Assembly: GCF_900111805.1 (NCBI RefSeq)
Contig: NZ_FOJN01000003.1
Location: forward strand, 1 to 64,000
Reading direction: 5' to 3'
Source: Rhodococcoides kroppenstedtii
GTDB taxonomy: Bacteria; Actinomycetota; Actinomycetes; Mycobacteriales; Mycobacteriaceae
Length of the DNA: 64,000 nucleotides
Shown here one piece after another: positions 16,676-54,111 of this stretch. A model generated the notes under the pieces. The model saw nothing but the letters and a program-made list of their open reading frames with translations, ran no database searches and had not been told where the DNA came from. Both the position numbers and the translations under genes were made by a program. Position 1 is the stretch's first letter; every line of letters begins with the position of its first letter.

Positions 16676-16812
16676 GCCGCCGATCGTGCGCCGCTCGCGA
16701 GACCGGGCGAGCGCGTCGACGACCACCCGGGGATGACGACGACGCCCGGGGAGAACGCCGTCGACGGGTCGGACCGGCGTGCTAGGCGACCGGCGAGAGA
16801 CCCCGGACATGG

Positions 16813-16881
16813 GACGACCCCCGCCAGGGGGGGGAGGAGGCGGGGGTCGTCGACGTTCAGCCCCGGGGGGTCGGGCTGAAC
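16813..16881. promoter_or_regulatory. Two adjacent inverted repeats upstream of the tad operon
   Basis: GACGACCCCCGCC (16813-16825) pairs perfectly with GGCGGGGGTCGTC (16839-16851) around a G-rich loop. GTTCAGCCC (16855-16863) pairs with GGGCTGAAC (16873-16881). They lie between the divergent cpaE-like and HAD phosphatase genes. They could be leader hairpins of the tad mRNA or a regulator site; the orientation of action is unknown. Confidence 0.55.
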
Positions 16882-17014
16882 GCGCCCGATTCGTGACCGG
16901 GCACAACGAAGTCTACACCCGACTGCGCTCGGACCACATCGCCGCGCGGCGAGTCGTCACAGCAGGTCCGGCGGACTTTCGGAGACCGACAGGCCCGCCC
17001 GTTACCCTGACCGG

Positions 17015-17818
17015 GTGAGCAGCACCGAAGCACCCGGACGCGTCGCCGCGTTCTTCGATCTGGACAAGACGATCATCGCGAAGTCGTCGACCCTGGCGTT
17101 CAGCAAGCCCTTCTTCGACGGCGGACTGATCAACCGGCGCAGTGTGCTCAAGAGCAGCTACGCCCAGTTCCTGTTCCTGGTGTCCGGTGCGGACCACGAT
17201 CAGATGGAGCGCATGCGCATCCACATCGCGAGCATGTGCACCGGGTGGGACGTCGAGACGGTTCGCACCATCGTCGCGGAAACCCTGCACGACATCGTGG
17301 ATCCGCTGGTGTTCGCCGAGGCCGCCGATCTGATCGCCGACCACAAGCTGCGCGGTCACGACGTGGTGATCGTGTCCGCGTCCGGCGAGGAGGTGGTCAC
17401 CCCGATCGCCGACGATCTGGGCGCCGACCATCACGTCGGTACGCAGATGGCGATCGAGGACGGCAAGTACTCGGGCGAGATCTCGTTCTACTGCTACGGG
17501 CCGGGCAAGGTCGAGGCGATGGAGAAGCTCGCCGCCGAGCACGGGTACGACCTGTCCCGCTCGTACGCCTATACCGACTCGGTCACCGACCTGCCGATGC
17601 TCGAGGCCGTCGGGCACCCGACGGCGGTCAATCCCGATCGTGGTCTGCGCAAGGAGGCCGCGAGCAAGGGGTGGCCGATTCTCACCTTCTCGAACCCGGT
17701 CTCGTTGCGCAGCCGGTTCACCGCGCCGTCGTCGAGCACCGTCGCCGGGGTCGCCGCCTCCCTCGCCGCGGTGGCGGCCGGCGCGGTCTCGTACGGCGTG
17801 CTGCGTCGCCGTCGCTGA
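17015..17818 (+). CDS. HAD-IB family phosphatase (SerB-like, Rv3661-like)
   Basis: A 267-residue protein from a GTG at 17015. HAD motif I is FDLDKT (Asp15, Asp17), motif II is VSASGEEVV, and motifs III/IV are represented by the GPGKVEAM Lys and YTDSVTDLPML. The family includes phosphoserine and lipid phosphate phosphatases; the substrate here is unknown. Near the C-terminus is a hydrophobic Ala/Val segment and a positive end (LRRRR), suggesting a membrane-anchored enzyme facing the cytosol. The gene matches Rv3661 in position. The candidate small RNA starts about 60 bases after its stop. Confidence 0.88.
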   Translation: MSSTEAPGRVAAFFDLDKTIIAKSSTLAFSKPFFDGGLINRRSVLKSSYAQFLFLVSGADHDQMERMRIHIASMCTGWDVETVRTIVAETLHDIVDPLVFAEAADLIADHKLRGHDVVIVSASGEEVVTPIADDLGADHHVGTQMAIEDGKYSGEISFYCYGPGKVEAMEKLAAEHGYDLSRSYAYTDSVTDLPMLEAVGHPTAVNPDRGLRKEAASKGWPILTFSNPVSLRSRFTAPSSSTVAGVAASLAAVAAGAVSYGVLRRRR

Positions 17819-17845
17819 ATCGATCGGGCCGCCGGAAGCCCTTGC

Positions 17846-17861
17846 TGTGGCGTCGATCACA
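17846..17861. promoter_or_regulatory. Crp-like site TGTGGCGTCGATCACA
   Basis: TGTGG-N6-TCACA matches the Crp half-site pattern (TGTGA-N6-TCACA) with one mismatch. It overlaps a possible -35 (TTGCTG, 17842-17847) placed 18 bases before a possible -10 (AAGAAT, 17866-17871). The window encodes a Crp homologue. At this location Crp would be expected to compete with polymerase, or to serve a different start site; the sign of control is not known. Confidence 0.5.
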
Positions 17862-17877
17862 GAGTAAGAATGGACGC

Positions 17878-18190
17878 ACGGAAAGACGGAAGGCCAAGAG
17901 CGAGCCGGAAGAGAAGGAACGCTCTCCCAGCCGGGCTTTCCCGGCACGGACCGACGGTACCCACGCGTAGCGCGCCGCTATGATGGCACAAGTGTTGTGG
18001 GCCTGCGGAATTCGGGCGGACGACGTGAGAACTCTGCACTGGTTGTGGACACGAACGAAGGTCGCCACGCATTCTCGCCGAGGCCACGTGGAGTTTCTCC
18101 ACCGCAACCCACCCTGCACGCCTGGTAACCGCGGATTCCGTGCCGACGGGCGACGACGCCGGAGTGAGATCCCGGCACCGTCGCCCGTTG
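17878..18190 (+). ncRNA. Probable Ms1/MTS2823-type small RNA
   Basis: The gap between the Rv3661-like and Rv3662c-like genes contains no credible protein frame but has a promoter-like TTGCTG-18-AAGAAT ending at 17871 and a strong terminator-like stem at 18146-18188. The predicted transcript is about 310 nucleotides on the plus strand. In mycobacteria this intergenic position encodes MTS2823/Ms1, a roughly 300-nucleotide RNA that binds core RNA polymerase and accumulates in stationary phase (known for those species). I infer homology from position, size and boundaries; I have not compared primary sequence. Confidence 0.6.
18146..18188 (+). terminator. Stem-loop at the end of the candidate small RNA
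   Basis: ACGGGCGACG (18146-18155) pairs perfectly with CGTCGCCCGT (18179-18188), with an inner CCGG/CCGG pairing. A short TTGTC follows rather than a T tract. It also lies 28 bases beyond the stop of the converging gene. Confidence 0.6.
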
Positions 18191-18215
18191 TCATGTGCGG
18201 GCCCGTCGGGTCGCC

Positions 18216-18965
18216 TCAGGCCGGCTGCGCGTTCTCCGCGATCGTCGTCGCCTCGGCGGCACCGGCCTCGAACGACCCGCAGCACAACAGGACCCAGCTC
18301 CCCACGCCGCGCTCGGTACCGCCCGCGAAGCCCTCGACACCCGTGCGGTAAGCGGCGAGCCGCTTGGCCCAGCTCTCCTCCGGCACACCCAGATTGTGGG
18401 GATCGAGGCCGGACGCGACGGCCACCAGCCGCGACGCCGCGCGCGCGACCACGCCGTCGGCCGTCCCGAACGGCCGCAGGGACACCAACTCTCCGTGGAC
18501 GATCGCCGCGACCACCGGCGCCGGCGCCCGCGTCCCGCCGGTGACGAGGTCGGCCAGGATCGACAGCCGCTGCGCGACGTCGTCACCCGCCCGCGGACGA
18601 CCCAGCTGGTCCTGATCGTCGACGAGGTCCGCCGCGGCCAACAGATGGAGACGAGCCAACGCCTGGAGCGGGGCGCGTCGCCACGTTCCGACGGTGCTGG
18701 TGAGCGCGTCGCCGTCGAGTGCCTGCGCCACCCGGAGCGCACCGGCGAGGATCGGCGGGGCCGTGCCGTCGTCGGCGACGGCGGTCGAGGACCCCGCGAT
18801 CACCGCCGACGCGCGGGCCGCCCGCACCGCCGCCTCGGCGGCCGTGGCCGGCCACCCCCGTCGGTTCGTCTTGTGCCGGTGTACCTCGGCGAGCGCGTCG
18901 CGAGCCCGGTCGGCGGCGTCCCGGACGCCCGGTAGGTCGAGGATCGGAGCCAGCGGATCGGTCAC
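18216..18965 (-). CDS. Rv3662c-like protein with a degenerate Fic-like core
   Basis: A 249-residue soluble protein, corresponding by position to uncharacterised Rv3662c. Residues 164-175, RPFGTADGVVAR, line up with the Fic motif HPFxxGNGRxxR but lack the catalytic His and the first Arg. Residues 53-58, SAVIAG, resemble the inhibitory-helix word SSxIEG with the Glu lost. The surrounding helices (VVAAIVHGELVSLRPF, then ASRLVAVASGL) have Fic spacing. I infer an inactive or altered Fic fold; this could be coincidence within an Ala-rich helical protein. It lies 9 bases downstream of nothing on its own strand except the dpp promoter side, and is transcribed from the same strand as dppD, ending near the small RNA terminator. 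Confidence 0.65.
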   Translation of the reverse strand: MTDPLAPILDLPGVRDAADRARDALAEVHRHKTNRRGWPATAAEAAVRAARASAVIAGSSTAVADDGTAPPILAGALRVAQALDGDALTSTVGTWRRAPLQALARLHLLAAADLVDDQDQLGRPRAGDDVAQRLSILADLVTGGTRAPAPVVAAIVHGELVSLRPFGTADGVVARAASRLVAVASGLDPHNLGVPEESWAKRLAAYRTGVEGFAGGTERGVGSWVLLCCGSFEAGAAEATTIAENAQPA

Positions 18966-24246: not shown

Positions 24247-24644
24247 AATCGATCCTCCATACATGTCCTGCGGGACAGGGTGCTGCCCTCGACAGATCCG
24301 TGGACGTCCACGGGCTCGGGTGTGGCCGCATGCGATGGTGCGACCCGGATATTCGCTTGACTGTAGACACACTCCGCACCCGTGTCGTCGACTCCCCCGA
24401 AATTGGCGGCCACCGAAACACAGCCGTAATTCGGGCAGGACCGGACCTGTCCGGTCGGACAGCCTGATGGGACGGTTTTTCGGACCCCTCGCCGCCCGTC
24501 GCCGCAGACCACCGCCCATCGCGCTCAACCGACCTCTCGGCGCACGCGCCGTCGTGCTGCCCGATGCAACGGTGCGGCGCCCGTCACACGTGACTACCCT
24601 CACACCCGTCAGAGAAGACCAGTCCGAGAGGGGCCAGGAGCACC
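24247..24644. promoter_or_regulatory. Divergent control region between dppA and acs
   Basis: No gene is supported in these 398 bases. They hold a 16-base perfect palindrome CCGTGGACGTCCACGG (24298-24313), a second inverted repeat CTGTCCG/CGGACAG (24447-24462), and a GTCAC-AC-GTGAC motif (24583-24594) 50 bases before acs. A possible -35 TTGACT lies at 24357-24362, without a convincing -10. The acs ribosome-binding region is GAGAGGGGCCAGGAG. Confidence 0.5.
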
Positions 24645-26624
<1,980 letters not shown>

Positions 26625-35949: not shown

Positions 35950-36624
35950 GTGGACGAGGTTCTGGCACGGGCCGGCATCTTCCAAGGGGTCGAGCCGTCG
36001 GCGGTGTCGGCGCTCACGAAGCAGCTGCAGCCCGTCGACTTTCCGCGTGGACACGTGGTCTTCAACGAGGGCGAGCCCGGGGACCGCCTCTACATCATCG
36101 TGAGCGGCAAGGTGAAGCTCGGCCGCCGCTCCCCGGACGGCCGCGAGAACCTCCTGACGATCATGGGACCGTCCGACATGTTCGGCGAGCTGTCCATCTT
36201 CGATCCGGGCCCGCGCACGTCCACCGCCACCACGGTCACCGAGGTCCGCGCCGTGAGCATGGACCGCGACGCTCTGAAGGCCTGGATCGATCAGCGTCCG
36301 GAGATCGCCGAGCAGTTGCTCCGCGTGCTCGCACGTCGCCTCCGTCGCACCAACAACAGCCTCGCCGACCTGATCTTCACCGACGTGCCCGGTCGCGTCG
36401 CCAAGGCACTGCTGCAGCTCGCGCAGCGTTTCGGCACCCAGGAGGCCGGCTCCCTGCGCGTGGTGCACGACCTCACGCAGGAGGAGATCGCGCAGCTCGT
36501 CGGCGCCTCCCGCGAGACCGTCAACAAGGCGCTGGCCGACTTCGCACACCGGGGTTGGTTACGCCTCGAGGGCAAGAGCGTTCTGATCTCCGACTCCGAG
36601 CGCCTGGCGCGTCGCGCCCGATAG
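35950..36624 (+). CDS. crp: cAMP receptor protein family transcription factor
   Basis: A 224-residue protein from a GTG at 35950 with AAGGAG upstream, orthologous by position to Rv3676. The cyclic-nucleotide barrel has [16 protein letters not shown] and the phosphate-binding cassette [18 protein letters not shown]. The dimer helix is followed by a winged helix-turn-helix [21 protein letters not shown] with the recognition-helix Arg-Glu. It should bind TGTGA-N6-TCACA-like sites; two such sites are in this window (17846 and 54096). The final codons and stop are part of a 23-base tandem repeat. Confidence 0.96.
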
Positions 36625-43371: not shown

Positions 43372-43391
43372 GTGATTGTTAGCTGAATCAC
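43372..43391. promoter_or_regulatory. Inverted repeat GTGATT-N8-AATCAC between whiB4 and ponA2
   Basis: GTGATT (43372-43377) and AATCAC (43386-43391) are perfect arms around GTTAGCTG. A second, overlapping CTAAC/GTTAG pair lies at 43361-43382. The site is 111 bases upstream of whiB4 and 169 upstream of ponA2. It is a candidate operator; the spacing does not fit Crp. Confidence 0.4.
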
Positions 43392-43559
43392 AACGGCCTG
43401 ATCAATGTAAGCGACAGCCCAGCAGCGAAGCAAGGTGGGCGGTCAGATTTCTGGTACGGGCGTGCGGACTGCGACGTAAGCCCAGGTCACGGGGTCGACG
43501 CGGGCGGGCTGCCGCCGAGACCACCGGCCCGCGGCCCGGCGACCCGTACTCTGTTCAGC

Positions 43560-45929
43560 GTGTCGATCGCCAGAACAGTCGCCAAGCTCGCCGGGTGCAG
43601 CGCCCTCGCGGGTGCCTTGCTCGCCGGAGTGATGTTTCCGCTCGCCGGTGGGTTCGGCTACGCCTCGAACCGCGCGGCCGACACCGTGGACAACGTCTCC
43701 GCCGAGTTGGTCGAGGGCACGGTTCCGGCGGTGTCGACCATGGTCGACGCCGCGGGCAACCCCATCGCCTGGCTGTACGAGCAGCGCCGATTCGAGGTGC
43801 CGAGCGATCGCATCTCCAACGAGATGAAGCTCGCCATCGTCTCCATCGAGGATCGTCGCTTTGCCGAGCACGACGGCGTCGACTGGCAGGGCACCGTCCG
43901 CGCGTTCCTCACGAACACCACCAGTGGTCAGGTAGAGCAGGGCGCGTCGACGCTCGATCAGCAGTACGTGAAGAACTACCAGTTGCTCGTCGTCGCCAAG
44001 ACCGACGCGGAACGCCGGGCGGCGATCGAGACGACTCCCGCTCGCAAGATCCGTGAGATCCGCATGGCGCTCACGCTGGACAAGCGACTGACCAAGGACG
44101 AGATCCTCACCCGCTACCTCAACCTGGTGCCGTTCGGTAACTCGTCGTACGGCATCCAGGACGCGGCCCGGACCTACTTCGGGGTGGACGCGGCCGACCT
44201 CACGCTCACCCAGGCCGCCATGTTGGCCGGCATGGTCCAGTCGAGTTCCGCGTTGAACCCGTACACGAACTACGACGGCGTCATGGACCGTCGCAACACC
44301 GTGCTCGACACGATGATCCAGAACATCCCCGAGCGCGCCGCGGAGATCGAGGCCGCGAAAGCCGAGCCGCTCGGTGTCCTGCCGGAGCCGAATCAGCTTC
44401 CGCGCGGATGCATCGCGGCCGGCGATCGCGGGTTCTTCTGCGACTACGCCCTCCAGTACCTCGCCGACGCCGGCATCAGCAAGGAGCAGGTGGACAAGGG
44501 CGGGTACCTCATCCGCACCACGCTCGACCCCGAGGTGCAGGCCAGCACGTCCGCCGCGCTGACCGGGAACAGCAATCCCAACCTCGACGGCGTCGCGACG
44601 GTGATGAACGTGATCGCGCCGGGCCAGGACGATCACCGCATCCTCGCGATGGGCTCGTCGCGGCGCTACGGGCTGAACGGCGACGCCAACGAGACGGTGC
44701 AGCCGCAGCCGTATTCGCTGGTCGGCAGCGGTGCCGGATCGATCTTCAAGATCTTCACGACCGCCGCGGCCATGGAGAAGGGACTCGGCACGTCGGCCGT
44801 TCTCCAGGTCCCCAGCCGCGTCGAGGTCAAGGGCCTCGGTGACGGCGGTGCACGCGGCTGCCCGCCCTCGACCTACTGCGTCACCAACGCCGGCACCTAC
44901 CCGGCGGCCCTCTCGGTGACCGACGCCCTCGCCCAGTCCCCCAACACCGCGTTCGTGAAACTGATCGAATCGGTCGGCGTCACCCCGACCGTCGACATGG
45001 CCGTCCGCCTCGGACTGCGGTCCTACACCCTGCCGGGCACCGCCGGCCAGGGGACGGACCAGAGCCTCGCCGACTACCAGAAGGAGGCCAACCTGGGCTC
45101 CTTCACCCTCGGCCCCACGTACGTCAACCCGTTGGAGCTGTCCAACGTGGCCGCCACCATCGCCTCCGGGGGCAAGTGGTGCCCGCCGAACCCGATCGAC
45201 AGCGTCTTCGATCGCAGCGGCAAGCAAATCCCGGTGACGCATCAGGCCTGTGAGCAGGTGGTCGAGCCCGGGTTGGCGAACACCCTGGCCAACGCGATGA
45301 GCAAGGACGACCAGCCGGGCGGGACCTCCGCGTCCGCGGCCGCGTCCGTCGGATGGACGCTGCCGATGGGCGGCAAGACGGGGACCACGGAGTCCCACCG
45401 GTCCTCGGGCTTCCTCGGCTTCACCAACCGCTACGCGGCGGCCGCCTACACCTACGGCGACTCGCCGACGCCCAGCGAGATCTGCTCGTTCCCGCTGCGC
45501 CCGTGCGGATCGGGCAACCTGTTCGGCGGTAACGAGCCCGCCCGCACCTGGTTCGACGCCATGGATCCCGTGGCCACCAAGTTCGGCGACGTCTCGCTTC
45601 CCCCGGTCGATCAGAAGTTCGTCCGCGGGTCGGCCAACGGCCAGGTTCCGGACGTGGTGGGACTGAACCAGGGGTCGGCACAGTCGCAGGTGCAGGCCGC
45701 CGGCTTCCGCGTGTCCATCGCCACCACTGCATCGTCGGAACGACGAGGCACGGTGGTCAGCACGTCGCCGTCCGGTTCGGCGATCCCCGGCTCGACGATC
45801 ACGCTGTACGTGTCGGACGGCTCCGTGCGTCCGTCGCCGGCCCGGCCCGCGCCCGGCCTCACGCTGCCGTCGTTGCCGCCGGACGTGACCATCCCGCCGA
45901 TCCCCGGCCTCACCGCACCCCCGCGGTAG
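43560..45929 (+). CDS. ponA2: Bifunctional penicillin-binding protein PonA2 with PASTA domain
   Basis: A class A PBP of 789 residues from a GTG at 43560. One N-terminal membrane helix is followed by a GT51 glycosyltransferase domain (VSIEDRRFAEHDGVDWQGTVRA, GASTLDQQYVKNY). The transpeptidase domain has SxxK in AGSIFKIFT, SxN in QSPNTAF and KTG in GGKTGTTES. A single PASTA domain (VPDVVGLNQGSAQSQVQAAGF) and a Pro-rich tail end it. It polymerises and cross-links peptidoglycan. It corresponds to Rv3682, needed for adaptation to non-replication in mycobacteria (published). Confidence 0.96.
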   Translation: MSIARTVAKLAGCSALAGALLAGVMFPLAGGFGYASNRAADTVDNVSAELVEGTVPAVSTMVDAAGNPIAWLYEQRRFEVPSDRISNEMKLAIVSIEDRRFAEHDGVDWQGTVRAFLTNTTSGQVEQGASTLDQQYVKNYQLLVVAKTDAERRAAIETTPARKIREIRMALTLDKRLTKDEILTRYLNLVPFGNSSYGIQDAARTYFGVDAADLTLTQAAMLAGMVQSSSALNPYTNYDGVMDRRNTVLDTMIQNIPERAAEIEAAKAEPLGVLPEPNQLPRGCIAAGDRGFFCDYALQYLADAGISKEQVDKGGYLIRTTLDPEVQASTSAALTGNSNPNLDGVATVMNVIAPGQDDHRILAMGSSRRYGLNGDANETVQPQPYSLVGSGAGSIFKIFTTAAAMEKGLGTSAVLQVPSRVEVKGLGDGGARGCPPSTYCVTNAGTYPAALSVTDALAQSPNTAFVKLIESVGVTPTVDMAVRLGLRSYTLPGTAGQGTDQSLADYQKEANLGSFTLGPTYVNPLELSNVAATIASGGKWCPPNPIDSVFDRSGKQIPVTHQACEQVVEPGLANTLANAMSKDDQPGGTSASAAASVGWTLPMGGKTGTTESHRSSGFLGFTNRYAAAAYTYGDSPTPSEICSFPLRPCGSGNLFGGNEPARTWFDAMDPVATKFGDVSLPPVDQKFVRGSANGQVPDVVGLNQGSAQSQVQAAGFRVSIATTASSERRGTVVSTSPSGSAIPGSTITLYVSDGSVRPSPARPAPGLTLPSLPPDVTIPPIPGLTAPPR

Positions 45930-54069: not shown

Positions 54070-54111
54070 AGGATACTGGACACGCCCGCCCTAAACGTGA
54101 TTTACATCACA
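54070..54111 (-). promoter_or_regulatory. Crp-type promoter directed leftward
   Basis: On the minus strand TGTGATGTAAATCACG (54111-54096) matches TGTGA-N6-TCACA with one mismatch. A TATCCT (-10, TANNNT) lies at 54075-54070. With a start near 54063 the site centre falls at about -41, the classic class II activator position. The promoter reads into the region with the 64-residue frame and the AACCTG cluster. Confidence 0.6.

Follow-up and report, generated by a model that had tools for sequence, protein, structure and literature searches.

The window, a 64,000-nucleotide stretch of DNA from Rhodococcoides kroppenstedtii, carries between two protein genes a region in which a small RNA of the Ms1/MTS2823 type very probably lies. 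On its upstream side stands a plus-strand gene (17015–17818) for a HAD-IB hydrolase (TIGR01490, PF12710), a neighbour that is conserved upstream of Ms1 in relatives and that fits the "Rv3661-like" gene named in a preliminary description of this DNA. On the downstream side a convergent gene occupies 18216–18965 on the minus strand. Its product has no match in Pfam or NCBIfam, so that of the earlier label "Rv3662c-like" the minus-strand gene itself stands, while the name rests on position only. Among named HAD proteins, the one from Rhodococcus sp. UNC23MFCrub1.1 comes closest to that of the window (85%). Five loci of the genus are the same in HAD gene and promoter as loci named Rhodococcus (L013, L025, L005, L007, and L003), which identifies the genus as a Rhodococcus clade of NCBI naming.

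About 1 kb from Ms1, a 6C RNA is found on the minus strand at 16809–16885 (RF01066, 75.1 bits). We take ncRv13660c of M. tuberculosis to be the 6C RNA. CRP has been reported to bind upstream of ncRv13660c in that species, and the linkage of 6C and Ms1 in mycobacteria has been published (PMC9569102).

The Ms1 candidate RNA

A relaxed Rfam search of positions 17700–18350 revealed a match to the Ms1 family (RF02566) at 17878–18196 on the plus strand, with 116 bits and an E-value of 3.6e-30, that is complete in spanning model positions 1–304 of 304. The preliminary description had proposed Ms1/MTS2823 for this interval, and the covariance search bears this out over the entire model, though under the curated cut-off of 162 bits. 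Because 116 bits fall short of that value, a default Rfam search overlooks the locus; at default thresholds, only the 6C RNA and two tRNAs are reported for the whole 64 kb. Weak Rfam matches to Scr3202 (24.7 bits) and GHRLOS (14.6 bits) at the same locus were taken as chance. Identity with 6S RNA was ruled out, as no covariance match to 6S is found at the locus: throughout the window no 6S family reached its gathering score, and 17700–18350 gave no hit at E-values up to 10.

The predicted RNA begins at A17878 and ends near 18190. Its fold reaches −151 kcal/mol with a z-score of −4.11, and none of 100 shuffles is equally stable. An alignment of 28 Ms1 sequences yields 77 consensus pairs, and for 32 of these at least one sequence has both partners changed. 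The consensus and the single-sequence folds alike show one long hairpin, interrupted by an internal bubble, together with short hairpins towards the ends, and the motif GAAGAGAAG in the loop of the 5′ hairpin is invariant in all 28 aligned sequences.

The perfect 10-base terminator stem described earlier does exist, as 18146–18155 paired with 18179–18188 in a 3′ hairpin (18146–18188, +) that is a probable terminator. A perfect 10-bp stem appears in 6 of 500 composition shuffles and in 12 of 183 equal tiles of the GC-rich window, which makes the stem by itself weak evidence, but its pairs show compensatory changes among relatives. The T-run after the hairpin is poor, and a scan for T-run terminators found none at the locus. 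It is exceedingly improbable that the interval holds no separate RNA and is just an extended 3′ portion of the HAD gene or a chance structure in GC-rich DNA: the frequency of such stems in the window and the empty terminator scan would agree with it, but the covariance match (E 3.6e-30), the invariant promoter frame, and the compensatory pairs speak against it.

Mechanical open reading frames overlap the RNA at 17980–18351 (+), 17718–18194 (−), and 17857–18285 (−), yet none corresponds to a conserved frame. Compared with the window, each of the 27 aligned relatives has one or more indel runs whose length is not divisible by three. With the frames broken in every one of them, the interval was judged not to encode a protein, in agreement with the first description of the interval as free of a protein frame.

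It is very probable that 17878–18196 (+) is an Ms1 RNA gene whose noncoding product, about 310 bases long, most likely binds the sigma-free core RNA polymerase as a stationary-phase reserve. Binding of Ms1 to core RNA polymerase has been reported for M. smegmatis, S. coelicolor, and M. tuberculosis. For the window RNA, this binding and the accumulation in stationary phase are carried over from characterised relatives and may be expected by analogy; transcription presumably starts from its own promoter. With the described Ms1/MTS2823 the window shares the full covariance match, the length, the HAD-IB neighbour, a predicted promoter of its own, the 3′ hairpin, the hairpin-with-bubble fold, and the invariant GAAGAGAAG loop. 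It differs in being the more distant RNA, at 116 bits against a cut-off of 162, with a function assigned by analogy. A location close to the replication origin, with transcription directed to it, is a further feature of Ms1 genes. 6S RNA likewise sequesters RNA polymerase, but is reported to bind the sigma holoenzyme.

Distribution of Ms1

Matches to RF02566 were found in all 37 genomes of the genus, every one of them under the cut-off, and in none of 14 control genomes. Across the family, 181 of 201 genomes and 30 of 31 genera carry a match, 36 of the 181 above the cut-off and 145 below. Among loci found by way of the HAD protein, all 80 that were kept (of 565 confirmed) have an Ms1 match. 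Since the Rfam cut-off is high and only 36 of the 181 matching genomes pass it, copies such as that of the window are missed by default annotation; a lower cut-off combined with synteny would annotate far more Ms1 genes. One genus with genomes of 2.0–3.0 Mb (g3) has a match in none of its 15 genomes, which fits the published absence of Ms1 from Corynebacterium (PMC9130861).

The expectation that Ms1 in this genus would extend the system outside Mycobacterium is outdated. A 2014 paper (PMC4191392) lists homologues from Nocardia and Rhodococcus, and a 2022 report gives Ms1 in 824 actinobacterial species and 146 genera, Rhodococcus included, with binding to core polymerase in Streptomyces (PMC9130861). 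The Rhodococcus and Nocardia Ms1 described in these two papers have the same RNA and synteny as the window and do not differ from it in principle. The Ms1 gene itself thus looks like an ordinary further copy of a widespread RNA, and what looks new here is the palindrome in its promoter.

Several genomes hold additional or weaker matches. Second, weak matches occur in two genomes of the same genus as the window (G018, 32.5 bits; G019, 27.6 bits). Second, shorter Ms1-like RNAs of 246–260 bases (77–107 bits) were found at six loci (L156–L161) in genera g19, g23, and g2. Their promoter is a different one that lacks the palindrome, and the surrounding 1.5 kb or so contain no HAD gene; for R. jostii RHA1 and others, a second Ms1 has been noted in the literature (PMC9569102). 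One genome of genus g11 (G046) has two Ms1 copies (L148 and L162), each with CGTGA-N6-TCACA. Weak matches of 34–60 bits were detected at L149 and L151 in genus g5 and at L154 and L155 in genus g4; a HAD gene adjoins L149, L154, and L155, and the flank of L151 gave none. The g5 genomes measure 1.9–2.2 Mb, and the presence of Ms1 in them is a poor fit to a loss of Ms1 in small genomes. Two loci of genus g7 (L150 and L153), where the RNA matches are weak (58 and 44 bits) and the flank gave no HAD gene, have a promoter with TGTGATCTAGATCATG, a near-ideal CRP palindrome.

The promoter and its palindrome

Ahead of the RNA, a −35 element TTGCTG (17842–17847, +) and a −10 element TAAGAA (17865–17870, +; TACAAA in most relatives) are separated by a spacer of 17. 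TTG-N20-TA precedes the RNA in 109 of 110 related loci, the remaining one (L076) having N21. In 103 rows, namely the 110 related loci minus five duplicates, L022, and L076, the five bases TTG (17842–17844) and, 20 bases on, TA (17865–17866) are invariant. A scan for E. coli-type sigma-70 promoters found none at the locus, so that support for this promoter comes from conservation and not from a consensus score. The promoter-like elements of the preliminary description are well supported by this frame, as the interval that it delimited begins exactly at the TTG of 17842.

Between the −35 TTG and the −10 TA, most loci carry the palindrome TGTGA-N6-TCAC followed by A or G. This is a CRP/GlxR-type site, TGTGA-N6-TCACA being the reported consensus of M. 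smegmatis CRP and of GlxR. The window version, TGTGG-CGTCGA-TCACA (17846–17861, +), has one mismatch to TGTGA-N6-TCACA, and its centre lies at −24.5 from the predicted start. Over the 103 rows, TGTGA-N6-TCACR is exact in 52, and has one mismatch in 23, two in 5, and three or more in 23; the 52 exact rows carry 25 different N6. With a one-base shift counted in, 38 of 80 named loci are exact and 17 have one mismatch. The exact palindrome is present in 14 of 20 loci of Nocardia, 9 of 9 of Mycolicibacterium, 2 of 2 of Williamsia, 5 of 13 of Rhodococcus, and 7 of 26 named Mycobacterium. R. jostii NBRC 16295 (L015) is one of the loci with an exact palindrome.

For the 103 non-duplicate rows, the number of changes in each column was obtained by parsimony from a HAD protein tree. 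Half-site columns that lie outside the −35 box, eight in all, changed 2–13 times (mean 6.4), the six N6 columns 12–27 times (mean 18.0), and 17 upstream columns 17–38 times (mean 27.5), so that the N6 evolves at roughly three times the rate of the half-sites around it. By a Mann-Whitney test that treats columns as independent, the half-site columns differ from the N6 columns with p 0.0018 and from the upstream columns with p 4e-5. Columns 4 and 5, which are shared with the −35 element, columns −3 to −1 (14, 16, and 1 changes), and columns 20–21 (4 and 10 changes) were placed in neither group.

This conservation might reflect the needs of polymerase and promoter DNA alone, with no bound regulator. 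The overlap of the left half with the −35 hexamer would suit such a reading, as would the second Ms1 copies and the weak matches of genera g4 and g5, which have other promoters without the palindrome. It is nonetheless fairly unlikely, given that the right half overlaps neither hexamer and, at a fixed spacing, forms the complement of the left: half-site symmetry reaches 3.86 of 5 positions against a mean of 1.3, in the 85 rows that remain when the 18 without a right half-site are excluded. In L022, a locus of Nocardia, the palindrome is moreover shifted by one base as a unit, the TTG-N20-TA frame staying in place.

The exact 28-base composite TTGNTGTGANNNNNNTCACNNNGTANNA was found once each in 78 of 201 family genomes and 13 of 31 genera, and its reversed control in none of the 201. 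Of these copies, 77 sit 8–18 bases before an Ms1 match (64 in the first search and 13 in the second); the one in G121 is the sole copy without an RF02566 match. Among genomes sampled from the order, TTGNTGTGANNNNNNTCACNNNGTANNA occurs in 12 of 20 that belong to the family and in none of 130 from other families, and by this comparison the palindrome on the Ms1 promoter looks like an innovation of the window's family.

The palindrome is also dispensable, as deduced from 18 of 103 rows in which the right half is replaced by TCTAG or TCCAG and from two strongly divergent loci, Rhodococcus L053 (deviating at 7 of 10 half-site positions) and L086 from a genome of the genus (4 of 10). Named rows without the right half include M. 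colombiense, M. arosiense, M. triplex, M. europaeum, and M. scrofulaceum, which are slow growers. Within the genus, a looser pattern, TTGNTGTGN7TCACNNNGTANNA, is present in 29 of 37 genomes and absent from 8; a degenerate left half, TGTGG or TGTGT, is seen in 6 of the 37, the window and five relatives.

Possible control of Ms1 by CRP

A candidate regulator is encoded 18 kb from Ms1 by a crp gene (35950–36624, +; cNMP_binding and HTH_Crp_2 domains), which is flanked by genes for endonuclease III and a metallo-hydrolase. The alignment of its product with CRP of M. tuberculosis (3h3u; phmmer E-value 1.2e-133) runs the full length of both proteins, and their helix-turn-helix regions are identical. 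The Ms1 site shares half-sites, spacing, and palindromy with known operators of CRP (Rv3676, Crp1/MSMEG_6189) and GlxR, in company with this orthologous CRP; it differs from them in lying inside the promoter of an RNA polymerase-binding RNA.

In M. tuberculosis, CRP bound near a start site has been reported to repress and CRP bound upstream to activate, and both cAMP and CRP occupancy are described as dropping in starvation. Repression during growth with release on starvation is consequently the simplest reading, and both the binding of CRP at the Ms1 promoter and the repressive sign of the regulation are inferred on this ground. Briefly, during growth the spacer would be covered by a cAMP-CRP dimer with its centre at −24.5, in competition with sigma-A polymerase; upon starvation, the fall in cAMP or in CRP occupancy would free the promoter and allow Ms1 to accumulate. 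CRP would form one layer among several controls, because other factors act as well and Ms1 rises even where the site is broken. In M. smegmatis, upstream elements (the −491/+9 region) and decay by PNPase are reported to set the level of the RNA too.

The opposite sign, in which CRP-cAMP activates Ms1, alone or with another factor, and rising stationary-phase cAMP switches the RNA on, is quite unlikely. Precedents have been published, in that GlxR activates ldhA as C. glutamicum enters stationary phase and CRP activates the sRNA MTS0997 in M. tuberculosis, but both of those sites lie upstream of the promoter, and the Ms1 site lies across the spacer, where proximity to the start is associated with repression in M. 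tuberculosis. Very unlikely, too, is that another dyad-binding regulator with the same half-sites, such as a CRP/FNR paralogue, occupies the palindrome. M. smegmatis does have Crp1 and Crp2, which reportedly recognise one common consensus; against this stand the match of half-sites and spacing to the CRP consensus and the identity of the window CRP with that of M. tuberculosis in the helix-turn-helix.

Repression by CRP can be set beside the levels of Ms1 described in mycobacteria. In M. smegmatis, Ms1 is reported to rise about 130-fold in stationary phase, the driving factor being described as unclear in 2014. MTS2823 rises 6.5-fold in M. tuberculosis (from 6748 to 43600 RPKM), a slow grower in which it is described as the most abundant non-ribosomal transcript already in exponential phase. 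High exponential expression and the smaller rise would fit the loss of the operator seen in the rows of slow growers, so the M. tuberculosis pattern may reflect such a loss. A family-wide switch, in which CRP represses Ms1 and the cAMP state directly sets the polymerase reserve, with the right half broken in a group of slow-growing mycobacteria in keeping with MTS2823 levels, is a proposal for which the chances appear evenly divided. If it is true, a conserved operator on the core promoter would make the amount of RNA polymerase kept in reserve depend on signalling by cAMP.

No published link between CRP and Ms1 was found in the open-licence literature, as far as those texts were available, and one may be in print in a 2019 paper on the Ms1 promoter. 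As far as its text was available, a CRP ChIP-seq study of M. tuberculosis assigns upstream CRP sites to three sRNAs, with no mention of Ms1. RNA-seq of wild-type M. smegmatis and a crp1 deletion in late exponential phase is public (GSE158137).

Over the whole source genome, an assembly of 30 contigs, TGTGR-N6-TCACA is modestly enriched, with 10 occurrences where the reversed control has 3. The window holds four sites with at most one mismatch to TGTGA-N6-TCACA where 0.92 are expected, and one of 100 shuffles reaches four. Besides the site at Ms1, these include CGTGA-N6-TCACA at 24589–24604, with one mismatch and about 40 bases before a gene for acetyl-CoA synthetase (24645–26624), where CRP may have another target in the window. 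The further two are found at 54096–54111 and at 43377–43392, the latter preceding a large open reading frame at 43560.
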